Positions 20,501 to 39,900 of a stretch of 50,745 bases of DNA are shown here, piece after piece. How positions within the stretch are numbered: position 1 is the stretch's first letter; each line of letters begins with the position of its first letter. This DNA comes from Halothermothrix sp. (lineage in GTDB: Bacteria; Bacillota; Halanaerobiia; DY22613). The stretch lies in the NCBI GenBank assembly GCA_016841825.1, contig JAENYK010000007.1:1-50745 (forward strand), read 5' to 3'. Below the pieces are notes generated by a model. It did no database searches. It saw only the letters and a list, made by a program, of their open reading frames with translations, and had not been told where the DNA came from. The translations under genes were made by a program, and so were the position numbers.

Positions 20501-21256
20501 ACAGGATAATAACTTCTGCTTTTCTGCATCTGACAATAGATCAATATCTGCCAGGGTAGTTTCTGGTGAACGGGCAACAATAGTCAACAGATTTTCCAGA
20601 TGCCTGACCCACTGTTCAACTGTCTCCTGTAGGTATAACCCGGGATTATATTCAACCCGTAACAGCAGTTGATCAGCTTGATGGGTAAACCTGAAGCTTA
20701 CGTTAAAACCTTCTTCAGCTAGATGCTGCTCTTGATGAATATTTTCCAGGACAACCAATACATCGGCCAACGGCCATTTGTCTGAAGTAGATTTAAAATT
20801 TAACTCTGCAATTAGATTTTTTAACGGATAATTTTGATGACTAACCACATCACTAACTCTGGTCTTTGTCTGAACCAGCAGGTCAATGAAAGTCAAATTT
20901 TGATCGATCCAACTTGAATAGACCAAAAAATTATTAATAAATCTGCCTTCACCCAGCTGTTTAAAGATAGGTGCAGCGACTACTACCGGACTTCTATAGG
21001 TATAGCGGTACAGCAAATATTCAATTCCTGACAGTAAGATCAGAAAAAATGCTTTTTCAGAACCCTTAGCCATCTGGTTCAATCGTTGGGTTAGTTCGAA
21101 CTGAAAGGTGTATTCGATCAGCCCTTTCCCGGAACTATAGTTCTGAATTGAATCGGAGGGAAATTTACTGACCGCAAAATCTTCTGAAAACATATCTAAC
21201 CAGAAGTCATGATCATTGACCAGAGCGTTTGAAGGTTGTTGCCGATTGTTCGTCAT
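11549..21256 (-). CDS. NRPS, three modules: half-C-A(Thr)-T-C-A(Cys-like)-T-C-A(Gly-like)-T-half-C
   Basis: 3235 residues, third in the operon. It opens with only the C-terminal lobe of a condensation domain (~15-255, no HHxxxDG). Next are A (~270-775; code DFWNIGMVHK, the Thr code), T (~775-845; GGDSIKAV), C (~885-1340; HHSILDG), A (~1355-1870; hand-read DLYDFSLVWK with SGDWIPV and LGGATEG, resembling Cys-activating domains), T, C (~1960-2400; LPHIIADG, first His replaced by Pro), A (~2415-2930; DILQIGVVWK, Gly-like), and T (~2935-3005; GGNSM). A degenerate C-terminal C-lobe (~3020-3235) precedes the PKS protein. All three A domains keep the GKID lysine. No Cy motif precedes the Cys-like A, so no thiazoline is predicted. 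The start is an ATG with AAGGAGAGG, 15 nt after the preceding gene. Codes were read by eye against GrsA and are provisional. Confidence 0.92.
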   Translation of the reverse strand: MTNNRQQPSNALVNDHDFWLDMFSEDFAVSKFPSDSIQNYSSGKGLIEYTFQFELTQRLNQMAKGSEKAFFLILLSGIEYLLYRYTYRSPVVVAAPIFKQLGEGRFINNFLVYSSWIDQNLTFIDLLVQTKTRVSDVVSHQNYPLKNLIAELNFKSTSDKWPLADVLVVLENIHQEQHLAEEGFNVSFRFTHQADQLLLRVEYNPGLYLQETVEQWVRHLENLLTIVARSPETTLADIDLLSDAEKQKLLSCAVDADYPRDQTIQQIVGQQVERFPERVALKYQSPDSEQGLELTYRELNQKANTLAQRLHSKGVRPGTIVGLLVEPSLEMVIGILAILKAGGCYLPIDPEYPRERVEYMLADSQSSILLCNSEIYTEFDYSGEIVNIADSVVSAADQMELIASSGPNDLAYIIYTSGSSGKPKGVLVEQRNVVRLFINDSSPFAFDEQDIWLLFHSYCFDFSVWEMYGALLFGGKLIIIPRSTARDPGESLRVIIGEGVTILNQTPTAFSNLLTEEFRTAERKLNLRYVIFGGEALKPAILREWQQRYPETKLINMYGITETTVHVTYKEITEVEIQHNLSNLGRPIPTLQVYILDSDLRLVPRGVIGEIVVGGVGVSRGYLNRPELTAEKFIPDPFKPENRLYRSGDLGRILPSGEIEYLGRRDRQIKIRGFRIELGEVEYRLLSHPAIKTVHLMLKDNQIGEKDLWAYLVCEGEVTTAELRNHLALHLPSYMYPTHFLQVDRLPLTDNGKIDQQALSIMGNELKVGTDLLLPKSHLEKELAELWAEVLELIEVGINYNFSECGGDSIKAVRLVTEINRRLDVGLEIKDLYRHQTIKELALCLEELKEKGDLGLTSVLQRGRDLLAEFKNNIANDQSLLKRLPGGMEDFYPLSPIQLGMVYYSNIKPEEPVYHDQFVYPVRFVNFELDKFVQSFKLMMSKHPILRTTYQMRHFAEPIQIVHRELEPVINFADITDLNRQEQEERINRYLKEEDLGEKFRFENNPLWRMQLFRVKNHEYYIIFSFHHSILDGWSVANLIPECLAIYKKLQSGLEIQIQKLQHSYQDYVALLLGRKKNQEIGAYWQNKLRGYTRSKLPFNLSGKKLHNLYQSKIQRVNLGVELLKKLEEQIKVFGCSGKALFLSAYLYLLRIITTEEEIITGVVTNDRPVMEDSDKILGCFLNTIPLRLKVDKEISKSELIQQVSAYLIDVKPYEIFLGDIAELIGERNHLQNPIFDTIFNYIDFHVLKDVDSEYVKTDGNQLTVEPSEMTNTLFDLEVSKTLGRLKVWIKYSPNYFTDQDITTALRLYIRILESLADSRITMLRSVDLLTAEEKDWLIYQFNNTDAPYPYQKTIHQLFEERTLANPENPAVKWKDQLVSYRELNQRANRLAHLLREQGVRTGDHVGLIVERQPDMISGMLGILKAGAVYIPIDPDYPLARKEYILQKSAVSVIVVDSPVDNCNIDQLHLNEDRLRNYPDGNLSLDKDSCDLAYVIFTSGSTGRPKGVMIEHHSAVNLIVWVNRQFAIGLNDRLLFITSVCFDLSVYDVFGILAAGGQVVIASKAEIRNPVELKKLLITEKITFWDSVPTTLNNLINTLNQTDPDYVQPDLRLVFLSGDWIPVKLPGLVQKYFPQAKVVSLGGATEGTVWSIYYSIEGVMEGQTSIPYGKPISNNYFYILDENLAPVPTGVAGELFIGGVGVARGYLNESEKTASSFIPNVFREMLTREQRSHCPRERMLYRTGDLGRMLPDGNIEFLGRRDHQVKIRGFRVELGEIINQLLLHDEINQAVVVDRTDLSGDKYLCAFLVARECGQELSVRELKEYLARELPEYMIPTHYLYIDQLPLNTNGKIDWQALPELSGQLQTGVEYIPPEGDYEKSLADLWVELIPGITGIGVFDNFFDLGGHSLTATQLALRIFKEFNVDISLQAIFEAENLRDLARRVKLADQRDYIAIRQIEKRDYYPVSSAQKRLYILTQFEGNSTAYNMPGALLVEGSVDKTRLELSFTRLIQHHEILRTSFFLKDSDSSGDHKIVATVDGTWGELVQQLQPEVEFSIQELTGDLQSVITEFIQPFDLRRPPLLRVGLLQLAENRHLLVYDLPHIIADGISMGIMINDFVQLYEGTQLPPLRIQYKDYAQWQRELLTSEEFAIQEKFWREQFAGEVPILNLPTDYSRPKILNYRGSTYRFSLDQELVDRLSILERRFGVTRFMLLLTIYKIFLAKYSSQTDLVVGTPIAGRQDPELEKVIGVFVNTLALRSYPALTKNFSEYLLQIKELAVRAYENQDYPFEMLVEQLDIPRELSRNPLFDTMFALQNMPDIELTISDLSFRSYPFAHNVSKFDLTLNAFEVRDGINLHLEYSTALFTEATIKRMADNLKQLIKSVVEHPELKLWELEILSERDRERLLHQYNNTQKDYPIDKLVTQLFAEQVEKTPERLALICGDEELSYNELYTQVCQLASFLRQQGVGRESVVGLMVSRSSRLLSGMLGILEAGGAYLPIDPEYPVQRIIYMVQDSGTQIILTDSITQQKFAGSEELRERLLVNIDDQAIYETKSDSNTDNYLRDRRSSDMIYVIYTSGSTGKPKGTVIEHRMVHNLIQGICAKIDFDRKRIVSLTTVSFDIFVLETLLPLTRGAGVVLTREVELQDPGLLVKLVQCKQIEIIQLTPSRLQLLLDSVANTGFFGQFTEIIVGGETFPEQLVERVKKLATGRIFNVYGPTETTVWSTIKELTASKEKVTIGRPLANTRIYILDNYSNPVPEQVVGEIFIAGAGVARGYLDRPELTSSVFLPDRFAGTAQQHMYKTGDLACWLPGGEIQFIGRKDRQIKLRGYRIETGEIETILNSFPGIIDSIVVAREGVQDYKYLVGYYLGDLQPTVSELRSYLGEKLPEYMIPTYFHKLDSLPLTPNGKIDQQALPQIAEERPELSTHYAMPESEVELLIADIWRKILGIDRIGVNDSFFELGGNSMLLVQSHLLLEKCFPERLTIAELFIYNTIAKLTEHLENINQQKQTEKLDPEILTREAEFWQKEMVNAGQLLRLSDEYFNLPAGHPEWINLLFELTDDLTFQLRAIQELEKVDLSDILTAIFVYLLSELAETSAFWIEVVPRNISEKSNSELGLPLWIDLTEIEDFIQLYREINSKWSMVEKMSTACDPPVLTSQMDQEIIPIISTGEQTEGLRNQHLLLVFTEVNNRVQIECGFNSGKLQKGKIEELLIWYVNLLEQLIGEKEVS

Positions 21257-21271
21257 AATATCCTCTCCTTA

Positions 21272-24200
21272 TCAAAATTCAAATTCCAGATCAGCAAAGT
21301 CCACAGTATCCAGATTCTGTAGTCCACCCCGAAGCTGAATATCCTGTATTTTACACTCCCGATTTTGAACTATTACCCCGAAAATTGTCAACAGATCCTC
21401 TGACAGCAAACTGATCGTCGTCTTCTCGAAAAGTTTACTTCGATATTCTAGATGGAATTTTAGTCTATCACCCCGAATAAATCCCCGGAGAGTAAGCTCA
21501 AATTTAGCAATCAGGTTATCATAGTCATAGTTGATCAAACCGGTCTCGTTAAAGTCGGGAACTCCGTTCTGTTCTTCCATAACCAGGACAGTATCAAAGA
21601 TCGGATTCTGACTCATATCCCATTTCAGCTGCATCCGATCAACCAATAATTCGAAAGGATATTCTTGATATTCTGAAGCATTCAGAACTGATTCCTTAAC
21701 TTCCCGTAAAAATTCCGCAATAGTTTTATCTCCCACGGGTTGATTTCTAATTGGCAAAGTATTGACAAAAAGACCGACTACTCTTGATAAATCAGGATGC
21801 GTTCTGCCTGCAAAAGGTGTACCTGTAATTACATCCTCTGTCTGACAATATCTGCCCAGAAGTAGCTGATAAGCTGCCAGAATAAGCATAAACAGAGTTA
21901 GTCCCTCAGTATGGGCAGCTTTTCTTAGGTTTTCGGTTAATTCCGATCCGACCCAGAATTTATATAGCTGCCCATGATAGTTAGCAACCTCCGGTCGGGG
22001 ATAATCTGTCGGCAGATCCACTCGGAAAGTTTTCCCGATAAACTGATTTAACCAGTATATTTCCGCATCTTTCATCTGACCGGAAGTCAATAGATATCTC
22101 TGATAACAGGCAAAATCTTTGAACTGATATCTGGCTTTCTCAGGTTCGCTTCCCTGATACACTGCCCAAAAATCTTCTAACAAAACCTGCATTGATACGC
22201 CATCACAGATAATATGATGGAGATCAAAGATTAAGAACTGTTGATCGGCTAACTCAACCAACTGAACTCTAAACAAAGGTGGCTGATCTAATCTAAATGG
22301 TCTGATAAATCTATCAAGCACATCCGAAACTGATCTCCTATCGACGACCATTTCTCTCGAATAGTTAATCTTTAGCTGGAGCTCAGGATAAATTTTTTGC
22401 ACTGGTTGACCATTCATCCAGACAAATGCTGTTCGCAAAGCTTCATGACGATCCAATAAACTTTGCAAAACCTCTGTCAATCTCTCCAGGTCTAGCTGTT
22501 GATTAACCTGCAAAACAAAAGGCATATTATAGACAGTATTGTCACCTAACAGTTGGTTAATCAGATACAACTGTTTTTGAGCAGAAGATACCGGGTAGTG
22601 ATCTGGAGGTAAACCAAAATCCCTACTTATCAGATCAGACTCCAGTGGCAAATAATACTTCTCCTCATTCATTCTGATACAAGCAGCCAGTTCTTCAATT
22701 GTCGGACATTCAAAGAGTATGCGCAGAGGCAGCTCTATACCCCATTCCCGATGTATCTGGCTAATACAGGCTGTCGCTTTTAGAGAATGACCACCCAGTT
22801 CAAAGAAATTATCACCAATTCCCACTCCACTTACCTGTAAGAGCTCTTCCCAGATTGCTGTCAATCGCCTTTCTATCTGATTAGTTGGTGGTTGATAATC
22901 ACCAGTTCTGAGAAGTTCATCTTTGGGTTCGGGTAAAGCAGCCAGATCAACTTTCCCATTAGTAGTCAAAGGCAGCTCTGCTAAAAAAATAAAATATGCC
23001 GGAATCATATAATCAGGTAAACTGGTCTTCAGATACGCCCGAAGCTCTGTTCTGGTTAGGTCAGAATCAGTGGGAACGATATATGCACAGAGATTGTGTT
23101 CACCATTATCTACCAGGAGGTGTAATACCAGATCAGCTACGGATTGATGCGTCAGAAGTACCCTTTCAATCTCCCCAGGTTCGATTCTAAAACCTCTAAT
23201 CTTAATCTGACGATCACCTCTTCCCCGATATTCCAGACTCCCATCGGGAAGTAATCTTGCCAGATCACCGGAACGGTATAAACGCTCAGCCGGATTATAG
23301 GGATTAGAGATAAATCTGGTTTGCGTTAGCTGATCCTGAGTTAAGTATCCTCTAGATACTCCATCTCCGACAACAAAAATCTCACCCACGACTCCTGTTG
23401 GTACTAGTTTAAAGTTCTGATCAAAGAGATATATACCTAAACCCGGAATGGGTTGACCAATATTGCTGATATTCCCCGCTATATCCTCTGCTGTGATCTC
23501 TTTAAAGGTCACATGAACAGTTGTTTCGGTTATCCCATACATATTAACTAACTGACAGAAAGGATATTTTTCCTGCCAGGACAGTAATTTTCCAGGTTTT
23601 AAAGCTTCACCACCAAAAATTACATATCTGACAGCCAGTTCATTTATCTCTTCCCGTAATTCATACCGGAGAAGGTTATAAAAAGCGGTTGGAGTCTGAT
23701 TTAAGATCGTAACCCCCTCCCGGAGACATAGGCTACGAAAGTTTTCTGGATTTTGTGCCGTATGTTTCTCCACCACCACTAACTTACCTCCACTCAAAAG
23801 TGCCCCATACATCTCCCAGACCGAAAAATCAAAACAGGGAGAATGAAACATTGTCCAGACATCAGTTTCATCAAAATCAAATAAGCTAAAACAACCAGTG
23901 AATAAGCTAATCATATTCCTCTGTTCGACCAGTACTCCTTTAGGTTTTCCCGTAGAACCCGAAGTGTAGATTATATAAGCCAGACTATGCGGTGTACAAC
24001 GCGGCTCAAAATCTGGACAGTTATGTTCATCAACTAGCCCATTCTGCACTTCTATTAACCTGGCGTTAGCATCTGCTAGCATATAATCTATTCTCTCCCG
24101 GGGATAATCGGGATCTAAAGGTAGACTGACTCCACCAACTTTCATCACACTCAGAATTGCAATAACCATCTCTAACGATCGTTCGCCCAGTAAACCAATA

Positions 24201-27200
24201 ACCTCGCCCGGCTGTACACCTCTGGTTAAGAAACTCTGGCCCAGACTATTCACTCTGGATTCTAATTGTTGATAAGTCAGTGTCTGAGACTGAAATTTGA
24301 CAGCTATCTGCTCAGGGGTATGCTGTACTTGTTCGCGGAATTGTTGATAGATCGTCTTCTCGGATAAAGGATCAACTGCCCTCTGCCATTTTGTGAGCAA
24401 AAATCGTTTCTCATCCTCACTCACTAATTCCAGATCTTTAACTCTGATCTCCGGATCTGTGATCACCTGTGTACAGAGCAGTTGAAAATGGTCTGCCAAC
24501 TGTTGAATAGTTCCGGGAGCAAACAACTTTGTACAATAGTAGAAAGATAGAATAATTTCATCATTCATCTGGGCGACATTCACTGTCAGGTCAAATTTTG
24601 CCCCATAACGGGGGATTTCCAGAGGAGTGATCTTCAGATCTGGAAGATCATTTTCAATCTGTTCAATATTGCGCATAACCATTACTGTATCAAAAAGAGG
24701 GTTCCGACTCAAATCCCGAACCAGATCAAGTTTCTCAATCAACAGCTCCAACTGATAGTCCTGATTTGCATAGGCTTCCAGAGCGTTTAGTTTGACCTGT
24801 TGAAAAAATTCCCGAAAAGTAGCTGTATAATCCACCTGATTTCTAAGCGGCAATGTATTGACAAACATTCCAACTATCTGCTCCAGTTCCGGATTGGTTC
24901 GACCTGCCGTCGGTATCCCGATTACTGTATCAGTCTGAGCCGTGTAGCGGGTTAATAAGAGATGATAGACAGCCAGAAGCAGGATATATAAAGTTGCATC
25001 ATTCTCCCGGGCTAATTTTTCCAAAGCTCTCCCAGAAGCGGCACTTAACTTTACCGACAGTAGACCTCCGGTAGAATCAAAGACCATAGGTCGGGGATAA
25101 TCCAGAGGTAAATCTAAAACCGGCGGTAAATCCTGATAAACATTCAACCAATACTGTTCCTGAGCCAGTATCTTCTCTGAACGATAGTAGTCATTCTGCC
25201 AGACCGCATAGTCTTTGTACTGTATTGGCAAATCAATAAGTGTTTTACCCTGATATAACAGAATAAAATCATTCACCAGATTAATTGCTGACACTCCATC
25301 GAAGATTATGTGCGGCAGATCATAAACCAGAATTTGTCTCATCTCTGTTCTCACCAAAAACACTCTAAAAAGTGGAGCTTTGCTCAACTCAAATGGTTGA
25401 ATCAACTTAGAAATCAATCCTCCAACCTCTGCTTCAGCAGTGTTTAAATAAGTTATTTTTATCTCCAGATCATTATGGATCTGCTGAACAGGCTGCCCAT
25501 CAATAAAATGAAATGAAGTCCGTAATGATTCATGACGTTCGATTAATTGATTAAAAATCGTTTGCATAATTTGCTGATCTACATCGCCCTGAATCTCCAG
25601 AAATTTTGGCATATTATACAAAACACTTTCTGGTTCCAACTGATGCAAAATAAACATCCTTTTTTGGGCAGAAGAGAGAGGATAATACTGTTGTTGAACA
25701 GCAGGTTTAATCTCCAGAAAATCTGCACTATCTCCACCACTAATCCGTTTTGCCAATTCCGGAATCGTTGGTGACTTCAAAAATTCCAACAGTGTAATCT
25801 CCACCCCAAATTCTTGGTGAATCCTCTGCAGTACTGCCAAAGCTTTTAGTGAATGACCTCCCAGATCGAAGAAATTATCATTCAGCGTAATCTGCTGCAC
25901 TTTGAGAACTTTTGACCAGAGTTCCCGGATTCTACTGGCAACAGAATTCTCAGGAACTAACACAGGTTGAGAATCCTCCTGCTGTCGGGTAGGTTCGCTA
26001 AATCCCTGCCGATCTATTTTACCAGTTGAAGTCACAGGCATCTCTGACAAGCAGATACAGTATTGAGGGATCATATAGCCTGGTAATTTGCTTCGTAAAG
26101 CATTTTTTACTGTCTGTGGATTGAGTTGTTGATCAGCATGTACAGTATAAAAAGCAGTCAGATAATTCTCCCAACCCTGCTCCTCTCCTGCATCATCTTT
26201 GAAGGCAATGACAACACCTTCTTTAACTCCACCAATTCCCATCAAAGCAGCTTCAATCTCAGCAATCTCTATCCGATAACCTCTGATCTTAATCTGTGAA
26301 TCTTTCCGACCAACAAATTCCACCATCCCATCAGGTAAATATCTACCCAGGTCACCACTATAATACAGTCTAGCGGTATCTTTTTTTGAAAAGACTCTGA
26401 CAGTCTCAGCAGGATTTAACCAATATCCCAATGCCAGATAAGGACTTTTAAAGACCAGTTCGCCAATCTGATAGACTAAAGTTTCTTCACCATCCTGATT
26501 CAGGATTAAAACCTCAGTATCATCTATCGGATATCCTACCGGAACCCTATCTCTGCTGAGTTCAGTATCCTTTGTCGCAAAATACTGGAGGGTTACAGTA
26601 GATTCCGTCGGCCCCAATCCATTAATAAATACCGTCTGATCCGAAAAATGTCTCTTATACGCCTCTAAATCGCTGCGAAAGACTGCTTCTCCTCCCAAAA
26701 CTATCATGCGAACAGTGGAGAGATCTTCATCACCTGTCAGGGATTTGACAAAATATCTGAAAACCGTAGGAATCGAATGGTAAATTGTAATTTGATTGAC
26801 TTCCAACCAATGCGCTAATTTCGTCAATCCACTCTCAGCTTTAATATTATATAGATAAAGAGTCGCACCATTTAACAAGGCTCCATACAGATCCATTACT
26901 GCCGCATCAAAACTATATGATGAGAAAAGGGTCAGGCGATCATCAGGTTGAATCCCTAAGTTATTGGTATAATTCCTGATAAAATGCAAAATATTTCGCT
27001 GATTTTGCATTACCCCTTTGGGCTTACCTGTAGAACCAGAAGTATAGAGAATATAAGCTAACTGATCTGGTTCGATCTCCAGGTCTGGATTGGCCTGTGA
27101 GATCTCTGCTGGAACTTCTTCACAGATCAAAATTGTCATCTGAGTTGCGGATTTTCGCACCAGTGTTCTAGCCAGTCTGGAGTTCAGATGATCTGTCAAA

Positions 27201-30200
27201 ATAAACCTGGCGCCTGAGTTATTGATCATCTGCAATAACCTCTCTTCAGGATAAGCCGGGTCAAGCGGAAGATAACATTTTCCTGTCTTTAGAACACTAA
27301 ACACACCGATAACCATCTGTAAATCATGTCCCAAAAGTAAGGGAATTATCTGGCTTGAAGAGATTGAATCAGATCTGTCACTGATAGATAATAACCAATT
27401 AGCCAGTTGGTTAGCTCTCCAATTTAATTGATTATAGGTTAAACTACTACCATCCCGAGCAACAACCGCAGTTTTTGTACCATATCTGACGACCTGTTCG
27501 GCAAACCGACCAACCAGTGTTTGGTCGATATCTTGTTTTTTAAACACCTCCTGCCGATTAAGTAGAACATCCTTCAGTTGTACTCTGGGGACAGTTAGCA
27601 ACTGATATTCACTCAAACACTTTTCTTCACCCAGTACCATTTGCTCCAACAAGTTTTGATACGAGTCCATTAGGTACTCAATCGTAGAGGATGTAAACAG
27701 ATCACTCCGATAAAGACAGGTTACCTCCAAACCATTTGCATATTCACTTACATGACAACCCAAATCAAATTTCATCCTCTCACCCAGGACTAAGTGTACA
27801 GGATCAAAGTTTTCAATTACCTTTTCCGCGGTAAAAGAAAAATTTAATAGATTAAAAATGATTGAAGTTAGTGTGGGTCTGGCTTCATTATTTTCCAGAT
27901 CTAATTCTTCAATCAATAATTCCAGTGGGTAATCCTGATGAGCTAACACCCCTAAAGTGGACTCTCTGATACTCATCACAAATTCTTGTAGATTCTGTTT
28001 CAGATCAACCTGATTACGATAAATAACTGTATTGAGGAAACATCCCAGCAAACCTTTCACCTGTCGATGTTCCCTGCCAACAACTGGCCCTGCGATAATA
28101 ATCTCTGTCTCTCCAGACAATCTGGCCAGAAACAGATTAAACCCTGCTAACAGTACTATAAATAAACTGGCTTGACAACTTTGAGCCAATTCCTTTAAGC
28201 CAGTAACTTTTTCTCTTGATAGATAAAAAGAATAGCTGGCTCCGTGAGAACTGTTCAATCTATTGATATATGGATAATCATATGGCAGTTTTATCAGGTT
28301 TAATTCTCCTGTCAAACTGTGGTGCCAGAAGTCTTTACTTTTATTTAAAACTCCAGATGCCAACTGTTGATTCTGCCAGACAGCAAAATCTTTATATTGA
28401 ATCGGTAAAGATGGTAAAGTAACCTCTATCCGGGAAGCAAATCTCTGATAGAGGGCAGTCAATTCCTGATAAAAGATATCGATAGACCAACCATCAGCAA
28501 TTATGTGATGGAACGTGAATACCAGATGGTACTTTTTTTCACTCAGTTGAAAGATCAATATTCTGATTGCTGGTTCTTTGCTTAAATCAAAAGGTTTGCT
28601 GGTTTCAGCTGTGATTAGAGAATCTAAACTTTCCTTCTGCACAGCACTCTCATCCCAATTTATGAATTCGGGTCGTAGTTGCCAATCTGTGATAATCTTC
28701 TGTCTGGGTTCACCAGATCGGGTAATAAAGATTGTTCGGAGAATCTCGTGACGCTGAACCAAAAAATCGCAGGCAGTATTGAAATATTCTAAATTTAGAT
28801 CTCCTGCAAAAGAATACTGTCCTGTCAGATTATAAGCGGAACTCTCAGAGTTCATCTGCCAGAGCAGCCAAAAACGTTTCTGGGTATACGACAATTCATA
28901 GTCTTCTGCCCAGGGCTGTCGCGCGATAGCATCATAATCCACAATTTCTCCAGTCTCCTGCAAAAACTCAGCTAATTCAGCAATGGTTGGATAGATAAAG
29001 AGATCTTGAAGGCCAACATTTTTGGCAAAAACTTTTTTAATTTTGTCCACAACCTGAATCGCCTTTAAGGAGTGCCCACCGATTTCAAAAAAATTATCCT
29101 CAATTCCAACCTCAGATATTTTGAGTGTTGCCATCCAGATCTCGCTAAGCTTCATCTCTACAGAGTTAGTAGGGTGGATTCTTTTCCCTTTTCTTCCTAC
29201 CGCTACAGCCATCTCTGTCAATCTATTCCGATCAATTTTGCCATTAGGGGTAAATGGAAGTTCTGGGATGACAGAAAATTTTGTAGGAATCATATATGCC
29301 GGTAAATCCTGGGCCAGTTTTTTTCTCAACCATTCCTGTGATATCTCACCATCAACAACCAGATATGCTATCAATTCCAGACTATCATCTATATCTTTAT
29401 GGCCGATAACCACTGCTTCTTTGATCTGGTGAATCTGCCGCAGCCGTTCTTCGATCTCTCCAGGTTCAATCCGCTGGCCGCGGATCTTTAATTGTTGATC
29501 AGATCGTCCCAGAAAACGAATCTCCCCATTATTTAACCAACAACCCAGATCCCCAGTACGATAAGCCCTTTCAATCCGGCCATTCTGCAGACTTATTGTT
29601 GGAAATCGCTCAGCAGTTAATTGTTCCTGTTGATAATAACCTCTGGCCACTCCTGCACCAGCGATATACACCTCACCCTCAATCCCCTCTGGTACCAGCT
29701 TTAAGTTCTGATCCAGAATATATATCCTGGTGTTAGCCAAAGGACTACCGATAGTAATAAGTAAATTATTTTCTTTTATGGGTTTAATTTCCTTACAAGT
29801 AGACCAGATAGTTGCCTCGGTTGGACCATAAACATTATAAATTTTAGCTTTGGTCAATCCCTGTAATCGCTTTAATAACCTTTCCGGCAATTCTTCACCG
29901 CCGATAATGATCTCCTGCAAATTTTTAACTCCCTGAAGATGGTTATTATCACAGGTCAATATCTGTAATTTAGAAGGAGTTGATTGAATCATCTGTACCC
30001 TGTGTTTACACATAACTTGATCAAAAAACTCCGGCAATCTTTGCTCCGCTTCAGTCGCGATCACCACTTTTAAACCTCTGGTTAAAGCGACAAAAGATTC
30101 CACGCCAAAGATATCGAAGGAGATTGTAGTCAGAGATAACAGTGTTTTGCCGACAGAAAAATCGATCACCTCAGATAGACCATAAATCAAATTAACTACC

Positions 30201-33200
30201 GAGCGGTGTTCGATCATCACACCTTTCGGCTCACCTGTTGACCCGGAAGTATAGATCAGATACGCCAAATCTTCAGGTTTACTAATCTCCCCTGGTTCAT
30301 TAACCAAAACTGAATTACTAAACAAAGATTCATCCAACAGATTGAGTATCTCCACTCCCACATTCTCTTTAATCAGACCGGGAATAGTTAATAACAGCCT
30401 GGCTTTGCTATCTTTCAACATATAATTTATTCTGGCTTCAGGATAGTCCGGGTCCAGGGGAAGATACACCCCACCAGCCCGTACAATTGCCAGTATTGCA
30501 ATCATCATCTCCAGTGAACGCTTAACCAGAACACCAACTATGGTCTCTGGTCTCACACCTTTCTCCCGCAAAATTCGAGCTAATTTGTTAACCTTAAGGG
30601 CCAGCATTTCATAAGACAACTCATCTTCGCGACAGCATAAAGCAATCTGCCGGGGAGACTTCTCAACTTGCTGAAAGAACATCTCAACAAGGGTTTTCTG
30701 AGCACAAAAGGAGTGTTCAGTTTCAATTCCATTGAAATCGACTAACAATCTTCTTCGCTCAATATCAGAGAGTAGATCGATCTCGGCAATTATGATATCT
30801 GGATTATCAGCGATGATCTCAAGAATCCTTCTATAATGAACTGCTAACCTTTCCATAGTCTGCGGTAGAAAGATATCCGTACAATATTCCACCTGAAACT
30901 CCAGCGTATCATCAATTTTTATCCAGTTAATACTTAGATCAAACCTGGCGATCTGATCGGAAAAAAGGTATGGTGACAGAGTAAGACTATCTGTTTGATA
31001 ACTAACTGACTCAATATCCTCATTATGTAATCCCAGTAAAGTATCAAACAACGGGTTTCTCCCCAGATCACGCCTTAGTTTTAACTTTTCTATCAGAAGT
31101 TCAAAAGGATAATCCTGATTTTCATACCCTTCCAGAGCAGTACTTTTAACTTCTGTCAGAAACGCAAGAAAACTATTCCCCGACTCAACCCGATTGCGAA
31201 AAGCAAGGGTATTAATAAACACACCAATAACCTCCTGCAAAGCCGGATCTGATCTGCCAGCAACGGGTGAACCTACAATAAACTCTTTCTGTCCTGTATA
31301 TTTAGCCAATAAAATATTATACCCAGCCAGAAGAATCATAAATAAAGTCGTTCCAGATTTTTTCGCCAATTGCTCCAACTTTACTGTCAATTCAGCAACT
31401 AACGCAGAAAAGATCTTTTCACCTTGATAACTCTGAACTATTGGGCGGGGAAAATCAGTCAACAGGTTTAAAACCGGTGGTTGATCTGAAAATCGTTGTA
31501 ACCAGTAATTCTCCTGCCTGACAAACTCAGGTGATTTGAAAAAGCCCTGCTGCCAGACTGCATAATCCCGATAGCGAATAGATGGATTATTTAATTCTTT
31601 ACCTTCATAAAGTTCTAAAAATTCTTTGGTTAGAATGCCCATCGATGTCCCATCGGAAATTATATGATGTATATCCATCAGAATAAGATATTCTTCCGGA
31701 GTAAATTGAACCAGTTTCACCCGTAAAAGAGGTGGATCATTCAGCTCAAAAGGTCGAATAAATTCCTGGGCTACTTGTTGAATTACAGCTGGCTCAACCA
31801 TTACCTGTTCCAATTCAAAGGATACCGTCCGATGAATTCTCTGAACTATATCTCCTGCTGAATTTACCTCAAAAGAAGTTCGCAAAGCTTCATGTCTGGC
31901 GATCAATCTATCAAACGCAGTAACAACCCTCTTCAGATCTAGCTTACCTTTTACAAGAAAAGCTCTGGCCAGATTATAATTGATGTTTTGCCCATCCAGT
32001 TGATGCAAAATGTACAGACGTTTCTGGGCAGCTGATAAAGGATAAACCTCTCTGTCCTCAGCTTTCTCAATAGCAGAATACAGATTTTTCTCTGCACTCT
32101 GGATATAACGCTGAATATTTTCTACAGTCGCCAAATTGAAGATCTCCTGTAAAGGAATTTTTACACCAAAATCTCTTAAGATATACGATACCAACCTGGC
32201 TACTTTCAGAGAATGACCACCCAGTTCAAAGAAATTATCTGTAATTCCGACCTTGTCCACATGCAAAACCTCTGCAAAGATCTGCACTAATTTTATCTGT
32301 GTCTCTCCAACAGGAGGAGTATACTGACCTTTAATCTGATAGTCAATTGCACTCTGAGGGTCTGGCAATGCCTGGCGGTCAATCTTCCCGTTAGGGGTTA
32401 GAGGCATCTGAGTCAGACGAATAAAATACGTCGGAATCATCACCTCGGGTAATACTTTTCTCAATGTCTGATGTAACTCACCAATAGTCAGCTCCCGATC
32501 TGTTACCAGAAAAGCTGTCAGATATGTCCCTGAACTCAGATCGTCTCTGTCAATTACTACCGCCTCTTTAATCTCAGGGTGACTGAGTAGTTGATTTTCA
32601 ATCTCAGTTAATTCAACTCTGACGCCTCGTATCTTTACCAGATGGTCAATCCGACCAACCAGTTCTAAATTCCCATCGGGTAGTATTCGTCCCAGGTCAC
32701 CTGTTTTATAGATAATATCTCTGGGATTATCTGAAAAAGGATTCTGCATAAATACCTGCCGGGTTAATTCTGGTTGATTATAATAACCTGATGAGATGTA
32801 GGGTGTTCTAATATATACTTCTCCAATATTACCTATTCTACACCGCTGCATTTCCTCATCCAGAACTAACACCTCTGCACCGGGAATTGGTTTTCCCACC
32901 ACCACATTTACCCGATTCTGATCTTCTCTTTTAATCCGATAAAAGAGTTTGGCCAGAGTAGTCTCGGTTGGTCCATAAAGATTAACCAACTGAGTATTCC
33001 CGTGCGTAGTGTGATAAAACCGATGCAGGTCAGTACCCCGAACCATCTCACCGGCGAAAACAATATATCTAAGTTTAGCCAACTGTTCCTTACTCTGAAC
33101 ACCTTTTAGCAGATGACGGAAGAGGGAAGGTGTGATATGGATAAAAGTAATCTCTTTCTCCACAATCCATTCTACTAATTTTTCAAAATCCAGAAGCAGT

Positions 33201-33907
33201 TCCTGCTTCTCTGGAATACAAATAGTTCCACCACTCCAGAGAGGGGTTAAAATATCCCGTAAATATGGGTCAAAGGATGGAGAGGTTAATTGTCCATAAC
33301 GATAATCCAGATTCAGCGCTAACTCATTGACCTCCCATTCGATAAAATGCTGTAAACTTTTCTGACGACCCAGAACACCCTTCGGTCGCCCGGTTGAACC
33401 AGAAGTAAAATATATGTAGCAGTATTTATTCAAAACAGGTGCTGAGTTAATTGATACATTCTGGATAGTCAAATTCCGCTCCACCCCATCTTCTCTAATT
33501 AGTATAGCGGAATCAGCAGCAATTATTGGGGTAATATTCAATTGAGCAGTTTTCTGCAATCTTTCCAGTTTATCCAGCCCTTTCCGATCCACAATCGCCA
33601 AATCAGCCGGAGCTTCTTTCATCATTAACTTTATTCTATCATCAGGATAGTTCAGATCTATAGGAACGAAAATACACCCAGCCTTAACCACTCCAAGAAG
33701 AGCGGTAATTAGCTCAGGACTTTTTTCCAGCAGCAGATAAACAATCTTATTCTCCTTGACTCGCTGCTGCAAAAGAGCAGCAATTTTACTGAATTCTTCA
33801 AGCATATCATCATACGTTAACTGTTGTTCCCCTTTCTCGATAGCTATCTTCTGCGGATTTCGCTGACAAACTTTACTAATCACCTCTATTAAACTGGTAT
33901 TTTTCAC
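21272..33907 (-). CDS. NRPS, four A domains: A-T-C-A(Gly-like)-T-C-A-T-C-A(Thr)-T-C
   Basis: 4211 residues, second in the operon. It begins directly with an A domain (~10-520; hand-read code DPRHVALLAK, unassigned) whose C domain ends the previous protein. Then T; C (~615-1045; HHIISDG); A (~1065-1570; DIVQIGVIWK, Gly-like); T; C (~1665-2110; HHIIADGWS); A (~2125-2640; DAMHVGGVTK, unassigned); T; C (~2735-3165; LPHIIFDG, first His is Pro); A (~3180-3680; DFWNIGMVHK, Thr); T; and a terminal complete C (~3760-4195; HHIICDG). The acidic-aromatic tail FADLEFEF may be a docking peptide. Every A domain has TSGSTG and the A10 Lys; every T has GGHS. There are no E or MT domains. The start is GTG at 33905-33907 with AAAGGGGAG seven nt upstream; an ATG seven nt earlier is out of frame. 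Confidence 0.92.
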   Translation of the reverse strand: MKNTSLIEVISKVCQRNPQKIAIEKGEQQLTYDDMLEEFSKIAALLQQRVKENKIVYLLLEKSPELITALLGVVKAGCIFVPIDLNYPDDRIKLMMKEAPADLAIVDRKGLDKLERLQKTAQLNITPIIAADSAILIREDGVERNLTIQNVSINSAPVLNKYCYIYFTSGSTGRPKGVLGRQKSLQHFIEWEVNELALNLDYRYGQLTSPSFDPYLRDILTPLWSGGTICIPEKQELLLDFEKLVEWIVEKEITFIHITPSLFRHLLKGVQSKEQLAKLRYIVFAGEMVRGTDLHRFYHTTHGNTQLVNLYGPTETTLAKLFYRIKREDQNRVNVVVGKPIPGAEVLVLDEEMQRCRIGNIGEVYIRTPYISSGYYNQPELTRQVFMQNPFSDNPRDIIYKTGDLGRILPDGNLELVGRIDHLVKIRGVRVELTEIENQLLSHPEIKEAVVIDRDDLSSGTYLTAFLVTDRELTIGELHQTLRKVLPEVMIPTYFIRLTQMPLTPNGKIDRQALPDPQSAIDYQIKGQYTPPVGETQIKLVQIFAEVLHVDKVGITDNFFELGGHSLKVARLVSYILRDFGVKIPLQEIFNLATVENIQRYIQSAEKNLYSAIEKAEDREVYPLSAAQKRLYILHQLDGQNINYNLARAFLVKGKLDLKRVVTAFDRLIARHEALRTSFEVNSAGDIVQRIHRTVSFELEQVMVEPAVIQQVAQEFIRPFELNDPPLLRVKLVQFTPEEYLILMDIHHIISDGTSMGILTKEFLELYEGKELNNPSIRYRDYAVWQQGFFKSPEFVRQENYWLQRFSDQPPVLNLLTDFPRPIVQSYQGEKIFSALVAELTVKLEQLAKKSGTTLFMILLAGYNILLAKYTGQKEFIVGSPVAGRSDPALQEVIGVFINTLAFRNRVESGNSFLAFLTEVKSTALEGYENQDYPFELLIEKLKLRRDLGRNPLFDTLLGLHNEDIESVSYQTDSLTLSPYLFSDQIARFDLSINWIKIDDTLEFQVEYCTDIFLPQTMERLAVHYRRILEIIADNPDIIIAEIDLLSDIERRRLLVDFNGIETEHSFCAQKTLVEMFFQQVEKSPRQIALCCREDELSYEMLALKVNKLARILREKGVRPETIVGVLVKRSLEMMIAILAIVRAGGVYLPLDPDYPEARINYMLKDSKARLLLTIPGLIKENVGVEILNLLDESLFSNSVLVNEPGEISKPEDLAYLIYTSGSTGEPKGVMIEHRSVVNLIYGLSEVIDFSVGKTLLSLTTISFDIFGVESFVALTRGLKVVIATEAEQRLPEFFDQVMCKHRVQMIQSTPSKLQILTCDNNHLQGVKNLQEIIIGGEELPERLLKRLQGLTKAKIYNVYGPTEATIWSTCKEIKPIKENNLLITIGSPLANTRIYILDQNLKLVPEGIEGEVYIAGAGVARGYYQQEQLTAERFPTISLQNGRIERAYRTGDLGCWLNNGEIRFLGRSDQQLKIRGQRIEPGEIEERLRQIHQIKEAVVIGHKDIDDSLELIAYLVVDGEISQEWLRKKLAQDLPAYMIPTKFSVIPELPFTPNGKIDRNRLTEMAVAVGRKGKRIHPTNSVEMKLSEIWMATLKISEVGIEDNFFEIGGHSLKAIQVVDKIKKVFAKNVGLQDLFIYPTIAELAEFLQETGEIVDYDAIARQPWAEDYELSYTQKRFWLLWQMNSESSAYNLTGQYSFAGDLNLEYFNTACDFLVQRHEILRTIFITRSGEPRQKIITDWQLRPEFINWDESAVQKESLDSLITAETSKPFDLSKEPAIRILIFQLSEKKYHLVFTFHHIIADGWSIDIFYQELTALYQRFASRIEVTLPSLPIQYKDFAVWQNQQLASGVLNKSKDFWHHSLTGELNLIKLPYDYPYINRLNSSHGASYSFYLSREKVTGLKELAQSCQASLFIVLLAGFNLFLARLSGETEIIIAGPVVGREHRQVKGLLGCFLNTVIYRNQVDLKQNLQEFVMSIRESTLGVLAHQDYPLELLIEELDLENNEARPTLTSIIFNLLNFSFTAEKVIENFDPVHLVLGERMKFDLGCHVSEYANGLEVTCLYRSDLFTSSTIEYLMDSYQNLLEQMVLGEEKCLSEYQLLTVPRVQLKDVLLNRQEVFKKQDIDQTLVGRFAEQVVRYGTKTAVVARDGSSLTYNQLNWRANQLANWLLSISDRSDSISSSQIIPLLLGHDLQMVIGVFSVLKTGKCYLPLDPAYPEERLLQMINNSGARFILTDHLNSRLARTLVRKSATQMTILICEEVPAEISQANPDLEIEPDQLAYILYTSGSTGKPKGVMQNQRNILHFIRNYTNNLGIQPDDRLTLFSSYSFDAAVMDLYGALLNGATLYLYNIKAESGLTKLAHWLEVNQITIYHSIPTVFRYFVKSLTGDEDLSTVRMIVLGGEAVFRSDLEAYKRHFSDQTVFINGLGPTESTVTLQYFATKDTELSRDRVPVGYPIDDTEVLILNQDGEETLVYQIGELVFKSPYLALGYWLNPAETVRVFSKKDTARLYYSGDLGRYLPDGMVEFVGRKDSQIKIRGYRIEIAEIEAALMGIGGVKEGVVIAFKDDAGEEQGWENYLTAFYTVHADQQLNPQTVKNALRSKLPGYMIPQYCICLSEMPVTSTGKIDRQGFSEPTRQQEDSQPVLVPENSVASRIRELWSKVLKVQQITLNDNFFDLGGHSLKALAVLQRIHQEFGVEITLLEFLKSPTIPELAKRISGGDSADFLEIKPAVQQQYYPLSSAQKRMFILHQLEPESVLYNMPKFLEIQGDVDQQIMQTIFNQLIERHESLRTSFHFIDGQPVQQIHNDLEIKITYLNTAEAEVGGLISKLIQPFELSKAPLFRVFLVRTEMRQILVYDLPHIIFDGVSAINLVNDFILLYQGKTLIDLPIQYKDYAVWQNDYYRSEKILAQEQYWLNVYQDLPPVLDLPLDYPRPMVFDSTGGLLSVKLSAASGRALEKLARENDATLYILLLAVYHLLLTRYTAQTDTVIGIPTAGRTNPELEQIVGMFVNTLPLRNQVDYTATFREFFQQVKLNALEAYANQDYQLELLIEKLDLVRDLSRNPLFDTVMVMRNIEQIENDLPDLKITPLEIPRYGAKFDLTVNVAQMNDEIILSFYYCTKLFAPGTIQQLADHFQLLCTQVITDPEIRVKDLELVSEDEKRFLLTKWQRAVDPLSEKTIYQQFREQVQHTPEQIAVKFQSQTLTYQQLESRVNSLGQSFLTRGVQPGEVIGLLGERSLEMVIAILSVMKVGGVSLPLDPDYPRERIDYMLADANARLIEVQNGLVDEHNCPDFEPRCTPHSLAYIIYTSGSTGKPKGVLVEQRNMISLFTGCFSLFDFDETDVWTMFHSPCFDFSVWEMYGALLSGGKLVVVEKHTAQNPENFRSLCLREGVTILNQTPTAFYNLLRYELREEINELAVRYVIFGGEALKPGKLLSWQEKYPFCQLVNMYGITETTVHVTFKEITAEDIAGNISNIGQPIPGLGIYLFDQNFKLVPTGVVGEIFVVGDGVSRGYLTQDQLTQTRFISNPYNPAERLYRSGDLARLLPDGSLEYRGRGDRQIKIRGFRIEPGEIERVLLTHQSVADLVLHLLVDNGEHNLCAYIVPTDSDLTRTELRAYLKTSLPDYMIPAYFIFLAELPLTTNGKVDLAALPEPKDELLRTGDYQPPTNQIERRLTAIWEELLQVSGVGIGDNFFELGGHSLKATACISQIHREWGIELPLRILFECPTIEELAACIRMNEEKYYLPLESDLISRDFGLPPDHYPVSSAQKQLYLINQLLGDNTVYNMPFVLQVNQQLDLERLTEVLQSLLDRHEALRTAFVWMNGQPVQKIYPELQLKINYSREMVVDRRSVSDVLDRFIRPFRLDQPPLFRVQLVELADQQFLIFDLHHIICDGVSMQVLLEDFWAVYQGSEPEKARYQFKDFACYQRYLLTSGQMKDAEIYWLNQFIGKTFRVDLPTDYPRPEVANYHGQLYKFWVGSELTENLRKAAHTEGLTLFMLILAAYQLLLGRYCQTEDVITGTPFAGRTHPDLSRVVGLFVNTLPIRNQPVGDKTIAEFLREVKESVLNASEYQEYPFELLVDRMQLKWDMSQNPIFDTVLVMEEQNGVPDFNETGLINYDYDNLIAKFELTLRGFIRGDRLKFHLEYRSKLFEKTTISLLSEDLLTIFGVIVQNRECKIQDIQLRGGLQNLDTVDFADLEFEF

Positions 33908-33921: not shown

Positions 33922-36900
33922 TTAAACCAGAAAATCATCATTGTCATCAAATTCAAAGGTCTGATCAGTGTGTACAGCCTCTTCCACCAATCTCATCTCT
34001 GCCACTGGAATCGACTCATCGGCAAGCACTAGTTCAATCAAATACTCCAGATCATGTAACAGTCTTCTCATAATGTATTCCTCATATCGTTCAGCCTTAT
34101 AAATCAACCTGAAGCGCAATCCATCAATCTGCTCCAGCACATAAAGCGTCAGATCATATTTAGCCTCCATATTGTGCAGATCCACAAGCTCCCAAATGAG
34201 CTTGTTTGTAGGAAGTTCGCCTACAGTAGGTTCATTAATCCCCAATTGATCGACCGTGAATGGTGCATAGTTAAAGAGTATCGAAAAAATGTCACGATTC
34301 TGATGTCGCTTATCCTGAAGCTTTTCATAGATTAGATCAAAAGGATAATCCTGATTGTCCAGAGCATCTAAAACCACTGAGTTGACCTGGGCCAAATATT
34401 CAGCAAAGTCACTGTTCTGCTGAAGTCTGGTTCTGATCGGTAAAACATTTAAGAATAAACCCATCAGATCAGCCAATTCGGTTCGATTACGCCCAGCTAC
34501 AGGTACACCAATAGTTAGATCTTCCTGTTTAGTCTCTTGATACAAAAGCACCTTAAAGATACTCAGTAAAAAGGAAAATCGGGTGACATTATGTCTCTGA
34601 CAGACCTCATCAATCTGCTCTTTCAACCCAACATCAATTACGAGATCCAACTGCTTACCACTAAACTCATCTATTTCCACCAATTCCGTGCCAGGTAACC
34701 TTGTTGAACTGACGTTTTGCAGATGATTTAGCCAGTAAGCCTCCTGACCACCTATAATCTCGGATTTCAACATACGCTGCTGCCAGAAAGCAAAATCTTT
34801 ATACTGAATCTGCAACTCTGGTAATTCTGTGTTATCATATAGCCCAATAAAGTCACGAAATAGGATTTCTATTGAAGCGCCATCTGAGATAATGTGATGC
34901 ATATCAACTAATAGCAGATGTTTTTCATCCTCAATCTGAACTAGCTTCACCCGCAAGAGAGGAGGCTGACTAAGGTCAAAAGGACGAACAAAATCTTTTA
35001 TCAACTGATCAATTTCAACTGCTTCACCTTTCATGTTAATAAAATCGATCTCTAAAGGAACATCAGAATAAACTTTTTGCACAACTTCACCATGATCTTC
35101 AGAAGTAGAATCAACTAATCCAAAAGATGTTCGTAAGATCTCGTGTCTCTCAATCAGCTCTGCCCATGATCTAGTAAATTCCGTTTTGTCCAAACTGCCA
35201 TATAACCAGAGCACTCCCGGAAGATTATAATTAGTCTGCATTGGATGCAGTTGATTGAGAATAAATAGACGTTTTTGAGCTGAAGAAGTAGGATAGTACT
35301 CCCTATCTTTTACCTTTTCTATCTTTTCATAAGATTTACTCTCCTGTTCTTTTAGATATTCAGCCATAACTTTAATGGTTGGATAACGGAAGATGTCTCT
35401 TAGAGATAATTCAATGCCAAACTCCTGATAGATTTTAGCGATCAACTGAGTCCCCCGTAATGAATGACCACCCAGTTCAAAGAAATTATCAATAATCCCG
35501 ATCTCTTTAACTCCAAGAATCTGGGACCAGAATTCGATGAGTTTGCTTTCAACTGCATTAGTCGGAGGTTCATATCCACTTACCCGTTTCAAAAATCCAG
35601 CCGGTTCAGGTAATGCCTGCCGATCCAATTTACCACTCATAGTGTGTGGTAATTTTTTCATAATTACAAAATATCCAGGAATCATGTATTCGGGTAAATT
35701 ATCAGCCAGATATGCTCTAATATCAGCAGTTGGCAGATCATAATTAACCACCAGATAGGCACACAGATATTTGCCGCCATCATGATCATCGCGATCAATC
35801 ACAACAGCTTCTTTAATCACTTCATGTCTTAAAAGCTGACTTTCTATCTCACCCAACTCTATCCGATAGCCTCTAATTTTTACCTGATAATCCATCCTAC
35901 CCAAAAATTCAATTTTCCCATCGGATAACCATCTGGCCAGATCTCCTGTTCGATACATTCTAACCTGCTCATTTAAAATACTTCGCACAAACTTCTGATC
36001 AGTTAACTCAGGTCGGTTGATATACCCTCTTCCAACACTTTGCCCTGCAATACATAACTCACCGGGAATACCTACCGGTTGTGGGAGTTCACCTTCATCC
36101 AAAATAAACATCTGAGTATTGGTGATTGGCTTACCGATTGATGGAATTGCCGGAATCTCTTCTTGCGGATTCAGAGTAAGAGTTGTTACAACATGAGATT
36201 CTGTCGGTCCATAATGGTTATGCAAATACACCTGATTCTGTTGTAAATAGTCACGTAAACCATCAGTGATAACCAGTTGCTCTCCAGCGGTAATGATATG
36301 TTTAATCCCACCAGGTAATCTTTCCAGATATTCCTGATTAGCAGCAATGAATTTTAGAAAAGCTGTCGGGAAAAAGATTATCTCAATCGCCTTTTCTGCA
36401 ATATATTTAAACAATTTAAGTATATTTTTCTTCAATTCCCGATCAATCAGGTATAATTCACCCCCACTGGTAAGAGTCGAAAATATCTCCTGTACAGAGA
36501 CGTCAAAACTAATAGTGGCAAACTGTAAAACTCGTCTGCTAAAATCAATATTGGTCTCCTTTTTCTGAAAATCCAACAGATTATGAAAATTCCGATGTTC
36601 TAACATCACACTTTTCGGTCTTCCAGTCATTCCAGATGTTGAGATCAGATAGAATAGATCCTGTGGGTCATTCACAGGTTCAGGATTAGTGTTCTGCTCA
36701 TCCTCCAATTCTGATATGATCCGATCCAGAAAGATAACTTCTCGATTCAAGGTACCCAAAAGTTTTTTGGTATCTGGCTTCATATATGCCAGACCATCTA
36801 TCTCTGCCAGAACCTCTTCGGAAGGTAATTTTTTGTCATTTTTGAGCATAGCATCGATTAATTCGACAAAGGTAATCTCGCCTTCACTGAGTACCGCCAG

Positions 36901-39900
36901 ATCTATATTGGCGTCTTTTAACATCACCTGATAGTCACTGGTGGCATACGGTCCCCCGGCGATAATCGGCAGCTTAAAACCCCAGTGTCTAATATAAGTG
37001 ACTGTCTTATGGAAAAATTCTTTGTACATGGATAGTGTTCTAATCCCGATCAAATCCGGTTGAAAACTGTTAATCAATTTTTTTAATTCATCATAGCTAT
37101 TAAAATCACTCCTTGACTTGGCGACCTTTCCGATAATCTTTTGGCCTAACTTCTCCTGGGCAAATGTCAGCAAATACATTAAACCCAACGGTTCTCCCAC
37201 CACATCATACATCACGTTTCCACTATCTTCACTAAACCATTGCGACAGGTCTAAGAGCAGAGTTCTCATGGCTGTAGATTGAGGTTTTTTGACTGGATAA
37301 TATTTTTTGATCAGATTATTGAAATCTGGTGCTGCATAAGAATCTTCCCGCAGCAATTTTGTTCCCTGTAGTTCCTCTTCTTTAATTCCAACAAAATGTA
37401 ATAAATCGGCAAAACTTCTAATCTCAACAGGTAGGTAACTATCATACTTCTGGACAAGTTCATCCTCTGTTAGAATCTTCATCTGAACCGGAAGTACATG
37501 CAGTAACCGTTCTTTTAAGAGAAAATACTCCTGCATATACTTAGCCTGATATTGTCTGGTAAATTTTTTGGGGAATGGTAGAGTCTCTGGCAGCTGATGG
37601 AAAGCCAGATGAGTAGACCTTTCAATCCTTTCAGGGGATATTCCATTCTCCACTGCCAACTTATAGATCTCTGTATTGGGGAAAATTTTTAAGATGTTCA
37701 TATTAGGAAAATGCAGCCATTTAATACTTTTCACAAAATCAAAAGTCATCATAGCTTCTTCTTCAGTCTCAGTCGGAAAACCATGCATCATCTCCATCTC
37801 CAAAATCACATGAGGATGCCTCGCAGCAATATATTGAAGATTTGCCTGCAGTCGTTCCAAATTCACATTTTTACGCAACATTTTCTGAATTCGTGGAGAT
37901 GCCGATTCCAATGCCAGATCCAGGTTAACCGCACCTGCTTCGACCATTAGATCAATAAAATCTGGAGTCAAAATATCACCCCGAAGACCATTTGAATAGA
38001 ACAATTGAACATCCAGACCATTCTCAATAATCATCCGTAAAAGACGACCACTATTCTCCATATCCAGATTGAAAATATCATCAATAAAGACAAATCTTCT
38101 AACTCCAGCTTGATAACAACCAAGAATCTCATCAAAGATATTCTCAGCACTCCGCACCACATGCTTTTTGGGCCAGATCTTGTGACAGTATAAACAGTTA
38201 TAAGGACAACCTCTCGTCGCCTGTAACGAGATAACATTTTTCGCAGGGGCAATTCCGATATAGTTAAAATATCTGGAATAATCCAACAAAGTTCTATCAG
38301 GTTTAGGTAGAGAGTCAAAATCTTTGATTGGTGTTCTGGGTGATGTAGTATGTGGCTCTATATCCTCCAGATTTAGATTTTTTAAACTGGTATAAGGTAT
38401 GCGATTACTAAGTTTCTCTCCGGTCAAAAGTACAGAGGCATTGGCATCATTTAGGATCGCTAATACCCGATTATTAGGGTATTCAGGATCAATAGGGAGA
38501 TATGCTCCACCCGCTTTTATCACTCCCAAAATAGCTGTAATTAACTCTATAGAAGGTTCTAAAAGAATTCCTACAATACTCTCCCGATTAACACCCTTTC
38601 TACGTAAAAGATGGGCTAACCGATTTGCCCGTTCATTTAATTCCCGATAGGTTATTTCCTGCAAGTCGTGGATCAGAGCAGTTCTTTCAGGAGTCTGAAT
38701 CACCTGTTCCTCAAATAGCTGTTGAATCGTTTTCGCTACAAAATTAGGATCTATTGTCTGATTAAATTCGTGGAGTACCTTCTTTTTCTCCTCATCTCCT
38801 ATGATATCTAAATGACCCAGTAATATATCTGGATTTTCAATTACCAGTTCAACAATTTTAATGTAATGACTGATAAAACGCTTCATAGTCTCTTCTTTAA
38901 ATATTTCAGTGCTGTACTCCAGATAAAACTCAATTTGCCCATTCTTCTCTTCACCTGCCAAAGAGAAGTCAAAAGCTGACTTACGATTGATATAATTATA
39001 CGAACCCAGGATAATTTCCCCCAAATCAATTTCAGCCATTTTCATATTCTGTAGAACAAACATAGTGTCAAATAATGGATTACGCAGATGATCTCGTTCC
39101 AGATCCAATTTTTCCACCAACATCTCAAACTGATAATCCTGATTTTCATACGCCTCAATAGCAGTTCTTTTGACCTCTTGTAAGAACTGATTAAAACTCT
39201 TTTCTTTGGTAGGATGGTTACGCAGTGGTAAGGTATTCACAAACATTCCGATTAGTTTTTGCAGATCTTCATGCCTTCTTCCTACAATGGGTGAACCAAC
39301 TATGAGATCACTTTGTCCGGTATATTTGAAAAGCAGAACATTATATATAGATAGAAGCTCCATATACAGAGTTACATCATGGAGTAAAGTCAGTCGTTTC
39401 AATCCAGCAGTCAACTTTTGATCCAGGTTAAAATAGATCACTTTCCCTGCAAATGTTCTGGTGAGTGGTCTGGAGTAATCTGTCGGCATATTGAGAACAG
39501 GAATCTCTCCACGAAATCGTTCTAACCAATATTGTTGCTGTGCCTTAATCTCAGCTGACTCCAGATATTTATTCTGCCAGAGAGTAAAATCTTTATAGTG
39601 AACTCTCAAATCAGCTAACTCCAGATCTGCATAGAGTTGATTTAACTCGCTAATCAAGATGTCAGCAGATGTTCCATCAAAGATTATATGATGTACATCA
39701 AAGATCAGTAATGAATAATCTCCACATGGAATGTAACCAATTCTCATTAAAGGTGATTTGCCTAAATCAAAAGGTCGGATAAATTTAGCAATCTGTTCAT
39801 CAATTCCGGGATCACCATTCAATAATTGCTCTTTTGAGGTATTCAGTTCAGGGTAAAGTTCAATTGCAAACTCAAATGTCTCATGAACAATCTGAACCGG

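Follow-up and report, generated by a model that had tools for sequence, protein, structure and literature searches.

A putative circularly permuted B12-dependent radical SAM enzyme embedded in a predicted proline-type adenylation domain of a nonribosomal peptide synthetase from Halothermothrix sp.

The locus described here raised the question of what a radical S-adenosylmethionine (SAM) enzyme with a B12-binding domain could do inside an adenylation (A) domain of a nonribosomal peptide synthetase (NRPS). It was located in a stretch of 50,745 nucleotides from Halothermothrix sp. (contig JAENYK010000007.1), which is referred to as the window below. Namely, the second A domain of the NRPS P0001 was split between the core motifs A2 and A3 by an insert of about 550 residues (Table 1). 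The initial annotation, made from the sequence alone, had placed this split at 36680-38370, which was right within ~25 bases.

The host was an interrupted A domain in the usual sense, since the insert lay in frame within a loop, A2 (IKAGGAYLPIDP, 1584) preceded it, A3 (STSGMTG, 2211) to A10 followed, and the domain was otherwise complete. An AlphaFold2 model of the 1062-residue interrupted domain was confident (pLDDT 88, pTM 0.86), with A-domain matches spanning residues 1-1058. When it was compared with 1000 chains, the top match was the proline A core of GrsB1 (8P5O; Z 57.7, 1.1 A over 390 aligned residues, 53% identity), which shares the proline code but, unlike the P0001 domain, is uninterrupted. 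The specificity code read by alignment was DVQFIAHVV followed by Lys, in agreement with the proline-like DVQFIAHVVK previously read by hand. From this code and the match of the modeled fold to GrsB1, the host A domain was predicted to be of the proline type.

According to Pfam, P0001 contained three Condensation, one AMP-binding, and two PP-binding domains as well as Radical_SAM and B12-binding. The insert had the hallmarks of a radical SAM enzyme: a PF04055 domain above the cut-off, a predicted TIM-barrel fold, and a CxxxCxxC motif, CPYNCLYC, with the cysteines at exactly the positions first noted (Cys1688/1692/1695). The Rossmann domain PF02310 in the same polypeptide made it a B12-binding radical SAM protein; PF02310 scored exactly at the gathering score in P0001, and the paralogues from the same genome had 51.1, 33.4, and 48.8 bits. 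This domain was without the His-type DxHxxG motif, and its GGP and EGE motifs were invariant over 35 sequences. When the insert alone was modeled by AlphaFold2 with 35 homologues, the prediction was again confident (pLDDT 89.5, pTM 0.89). Its residues 6-324 matched AprD4 162-444 (Z 20.1), TsrM 165-565 (17.4), OxsB 276-628 (15.3), and CysS 162-611 (14.3). In each case this range was the radical SAM half, that is, the portion after the B12 domain, and the rest of the insert matched the cobalamin domain of MetH (Z 12.5). Thus, the profile searches and the structure prediction that had been suggested as checks both bore out the radical SAM/B12 assignment.

The insert shared a radical SAM core, a Rossmann B12-binding domain, and a helical domain with CysS, TokK, and TsrM. 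However, these three are stand-alone proteins, and the papers on TsrM and CysS place the B12 domain at the N-terminus, whereas it was C-terminal in the insert. Profiles of the two halves of the insert recovered 73 proteins with both halves in the loci tested; 72 were B12-first, and a single one, the family member L043, shared the radical SAM-first order. Since all 72 distant relatives as well as TsrM and CysS had B12 first and the insert had the reverse, it was best interpreted as a circularly permuted version of the common scaffold. A cut at the linker between the halves would place both new ends side by side, making the enzyme insertable into a loop. A duplicated linker as a trace of the permutation is not claimed here: envelope overlaps seemed suggestive, but by alignment coordinates an overlap of at least 5 residues was present in only 4 of the 72 canonical proteins.

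The same genome contained four copies, all in NRPSs, namely P0001, P0002 (C4), P0003 (C2), and P0004 (C21), with inserts that were 53-55% identical. A scan of the genome collection found ~33 close loci, most of them A2-A3 inserts. Outside this genome, ~25 further copies were counted, chiefly in Ca. Aminicenantes, with the rest in Desulfobacterota, Clostridia, and additional groups. The hosts of the A2-A3 inserts were Ca. Aminicenantes metagenome-assembled genomes (MAGs), an Acidobacteriota MAG, Ruminiclostridium, Deltaproteobacteria/Desulfarculus, Elusimicrobia, and Desulfosediminicola flagellatus, and one Ca. Aminicenantes genome (CS4-C025) had ten or more copies. The initial annotation had considered that an assembly error might join two separate genes; this was ruled out by the three in-frame paralogues and by many homologues in independent assemblies, which also put the arrangement well beyond a chance occurrence. 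It had also proposed to look for other A domains with such an insert, and the search succeeded, while the permuted order, the other copies in the same genome, and the standalone relatives described below went beyond it. Neither the 60 near relatives that were compared with the genome holding the window nor any other of 398 genomes drawn from the same phylum (at most 3 candidates scored per genome) contained the insert, an absence that fits horizontal spread. Among plasmids, the single hit was a distant radical SAM protein from Roseibium. Separately, P0004 (L011:5803-11286) started within a condensation domain (profile 188-456), directly after another NRPS open reading frame, and its condensation (C) domain seems to be in two pieces because of a frameshift or a fault in the assembly.

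Three placements of the enzyme were observed. The first was the A2-A3 position. In the second, it stood in line between the A and thiolation (T) domains (L014, L017, L022, L025, and L029, with L022 and L025 by BLAST layout only): after a complete A domain came the decayed remnant of another A domain, if any, and then the insert and T. The A domains of these in-line forms had the proline-like code CVQ[YF][IV]AHVV, in which Cys replaced Asp235, the residue that normally binds the alpha-amino group of the substrate; because of this replacement, their substrate was not readable from the code. In the third placement, standalone proteins from Pelagibacteraceae, SAR324, Kordiimonadales, and [Clostridium] polysaccharolyticum had the same radical SAM-then-B12 order (L034, L035, L036 with two in tandem, L038, L042, and L043). 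They were 43-49% identical to the inserts, and their genes stood beside AMP-ligases and carrier proteins. They differed in being free proteins, mostly in surface-sugar/acyl gene clusters, and in most of them the cluster motif was followed by DIYKT, as opposed to HKIWPK in the inserts. The neighbors of L042 were a transketolase pair, an AMP-ligase, LuxE, LuxC, a FabA-like protein, a SPASM radical SAM protein, and an SDR, and by eye the neighborhoods of L034 and L035 resembled it, with NeuA/NeuB-like genes or an ACP. The marine alphaproteobacterial and SAR324 clusters around L034, L035, L036, L038, and L042 seem to direct the synthesis of an acyl group destined for surface sugars. L043 was located in an NRPS/PKS (polyketide synthase) cluster with A-T, KS-ACP, and acyl-ligase proteins. 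Since an adenylating enzyme and a carrier protein accompanied all three placements, a carrier-bound acyl or aminoacyl thioester was the likely common substrate.

These placements also bore on whether the insert is a mere passenger, that is, folded yet catalytically idle or only structural. The odd A3 motif of the P0001 host domain would suit such a role, which was nevertheless highly improbable, because the cluster cysteines were invariant, the in-line forms retained the insert though its own A domain had decayed, and free-standing relatives existed. Moreover, the insert was under strong purifying selection: dN/dS between the L013 and L041 inserts was ~0.05-0.09; half of the pairs compared showed saturation at synonymous sites.

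The host codes corresponded to Pro, Thr, Ile, Leu, Glu, Asn, a Tyr-like residue, and several others without an assigned amino acid; these assignments follow the general rules of specificity codes. Therefore, the role in proline modification proposed in the initial annotation may apply to the P0001 host domain but was too narrow for the family. When the host A code was mapped on the insert tree, 15 changes were required, compared with a mean of 20.5 and a minimum of 17 for shuffled codes (0 of 500 shuffles as low). Mapping the genome required 14 changes, against 15.3 after shuffling (68 of 500 as low). Thus, the insert tree tracked the host code, not the genome. A proline clade united the window with L013, L041, and L016 (support 100/97), where the L016 contig stopped within the A domain and FDVSFQE was read at A4. 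A DPWY clade (100/100) joined two copies from the window's genome to Delta, Aminicenantes, and Acidobacteriota sequences. Because the tree followed the host code and contained these two clades, each insert seems to be matched to its amino acid. The same pattern, notably the Pro, DPWY, and in-line clades, argued against an insert that works on something other than the loaded proline, such as the growing peptide or a neighboring module in trans. This alternative was unlikely, even though the standalone relatives must act in trans and L043 adjoins an A-T protein.

The domains that co-occurred with the insert narrowed the possible reactions. At least three of the homologous modules with this interruption (P0002, L024, and L032) also contained an epimerization (E) domain, which argued against epimerization or C-alpha methylation by the insert: E would be redundant after the former and impossible after the latter. 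In addition, C domains following E-less modules had LCL-like starts (SxAQxR) by motif reading, and the C domain downstream of the interrupted proline module in P0001 likewise had an LCL-type look. Accordingly, the epimerase alternative of the initial annotation was disfavored. Attack at C-alpha would have the attraction that its hydrogen is common to all host codes, and radical SAM epimerases do occur in pathways of ribosomally synthesized and post-translationally modified peptides; those epimerases, to our knowledge, need no B12, and we considered this route very unlikely. In L031:869-7192 and L023:2-4876, the A2-A3 insert was accompanied by a second insert at A8-A9 that looked, by eye, like a SAM methyltransferase, which argued against backbone N-methylation by the radical enzyme. 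With epimerization, C-alpha methylation, and N-methylation each opposed by co-occurring domains, the reaction left over would be a change at a side-chain carbon.

Another type of doubly interrupted A domain was observed in P0003 (L010:6164-12085), P0004 (L011:5803-11112), L026, and L027, where the A2-A3 insert was combined with ~340 residues after A8. This second insert had CxxC pairs, an ATP-pyrophosphatase-like loop (AGGRGA/NGGRGA), and a weak QueC match (E 0.009), and a sulfur- or amido-transfer role is conceivable. It was seen with interrupted A domains of the code DPWY[IF]GTIN; L030 had this code and was truncated before the site.

In secondary metabolism, the usual reaction of B12 radical SAM enzymes is the methylation of sp3 or sp2 carbons. 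Crystal structures with pantetheinylated substrates exist for TokK and CysS, and CysS is a methyltransferase in an NRPS pathway. Because of these precedents, we favor, with a probability of roughly 55%, a cis-acting B12-dependent radical C-methyltransferase that acts on T-bound proline. We infer that both B12 and SAM would be used, that the substrate would be carrier-bound, and that the reaction would be a methylation, and we likewise infer which carbon would be attacked. In this case, the A domain would activate L-proline and load it on the neighboring T domain, whose phosphopantetheine arm would carry the prolyl thioester to the insert. A 5'-deoxyadenosyl radical would then take a hydrogen from an sp3 carbon, with a position in the ring as the likeliest target rather than C-alpha, and methylcobalamin would supply the methyl group, giving a C-methyl-prolyl residue ahead of condensation.

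Several observations weighed against this proposal. With none of the NCBIfam B12 radical SAM families (PhpK, BchE, HpnJ, KedN5, and others) did the insert score anywhere near the curated cut-off (best 95 bits versus 600), and the nearest solved structure, AprD4, is a diol dehydratase and no methyltransferase. The relatives OxsB and BchE also carry out other chemistry, the wide range of host codes, including Thr, singled out no obvious carbon, and the A3 motif of P0001 was unusual (STSGMTGRPKS), with ordinary A3 motifs in the close proline homologues L013 and L041. A possible, though less probable, alternative was a non-methylating enzyme that hydroxylates, desaturates, cyclizes, or rearranges the carrier-bound aminoacyl group (compare BchE, OxsB, and AprD4). 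It might then be an oxygen-independent equivalent of oxygenases acting on T-bound amino acids. The radical SAM half scored best with the PhpK, Sden_1168, BchE, and BzaD families and structurally with AprD4, and many hosts belong to anaerobic lineages. However, PhpK and Sden_1168 are themselves methyltransferase families, methylation is the reaction of most characterized B12 radical SAM enzymes in secondary metabolism, and standalone relatives were also found in marine Pelagibacter and SAR324 bacteria.

Interrupted A domains are known, and TioN, TioS, KtzH, and MarQ carry ordinary SAM methyltransferase, Ox, or KR domains as inserts (PMC11355689). As in these cases, a catalytic domain lay here within an A domain that can still fold, and the split at a2-a3 is shared with TioN and MarQ; the known inserts modify the T-bound amino acid. 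It differed in that the insert was a 550-residue two-cofactor radical enzyme. Recent reviews of interrupted A domains list M, Ox, and KR inserts, and the word radical is absent from them. Searches of the openly accessible literature returned nothing on A domains with a radical SAM insert, on B12 radical SAM enzymes in permuted order, or on Aminicenantes NRPSs. Thus, a permuted two-cofactor radical insert in such domains appears to be new.

Around the NRPS operon, a corrinoid adenosyltransferase (BtuR/CobO family) and an ECF transporter S component (window:1409-2444) adjoined the operon end and probably formed a separate operon. BtuR/CobO (1932-2444) as a partner gene was unsupported, given a gap of ~410 bases and a role in adenosyl, not methyl, chemistry. 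The stretch upstream of the NRPS operon (window:45621-50713) encoded a large protein with Ig-like/lectin repeats and two proteins with phage tail collar domains.

Table 1. Features of the NRPS operon and of the interrupted A domain (positions in the window; residues of P0001).
Feature	Position	Strand	Remarks
NRPS P0001, 3115 aa	33922..43269	-	Layout C-A-T-C-A[rSAM-B12]-T-C; leads the NRPS/PKS operon as gene 1
N-terminal piece of interrupted proline A domain, motifs A1-A2, residues ~1511-1638	38356..38739	-	
B12 radical SAM (rSAM-B12) insert, best read as permuted, residues ~1639-2189, between A2 and A3	36703..38355	-	
CxxxCxxC [4Fe-4S] ligand motif	38185..38208	-	Invariant in 35/35 aligned sequences
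Radical SAM domain PF04055, residues 1684-1846	37732..38220	-	Pfam E 1e-15, 58.7 bits vs cut-off 29.5
B12-binding domain PF02310, residues 2024-2137, C-terminal to radical SAM	36859..37200	-	E 1e-7, 32.1 bits, equal to gathering score
Remaining proline A domain, A3-A10, residues 2190-2550, code DVQFIAHVV-K	35620..36702	-	A3 atypical
Thiolation (PCP) domain, GGHSL, residues 2576-2639	35353..35544	-	Presumed substrate carrier
Second NRPS of operon	21272..33907	-	Four A domains, rSAM-B12 insert in none
Third NRPS of operon	11549..21256	-	Three A domains
Hybrid PKS (KS-DH-KR-ACP), one NRPS module, terminal thioesterase	2856..11549	-	End of operon

For the family as a whole, we consider it somewhat better than an even chance that the permuted enzyme is the form insertable into an A-domain loop and that it spread among the NRPSs of distant bacteria as a general on-line module for C-H functionalization. 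Each copy would be tuned to its host amino acid (Pro, Thr, Ile, Leu, Glu, Asn, and others), sometimes with a second insert that is methyltransferase-like or ATP-pyrophosphatase-like. The module is testable, since a cultured carrier with a complete genome exists, Desulfosediminicola flagellatus IMCC35005 (L032). If active, it would illustrate how permutation lets a loop accommodate a two-cofactor enzyme, and it would offer swappable parts for NRPS engineering. A single polypeptide would then unite amino-acid selection with radical chemistry on unactivated carbons, which is unreported for known interrupted A domains, and peptides from Ca. Aminicenantes, Desulfobacterota, and Clostridia would be predicted to contain C-modified residues. 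Since relatives of the insert occur in A domains for many amino acids and in several groups of bacteria, these inserts probably represent a real and little-known route by which unreactive carbons of amino acids are modified during loading.

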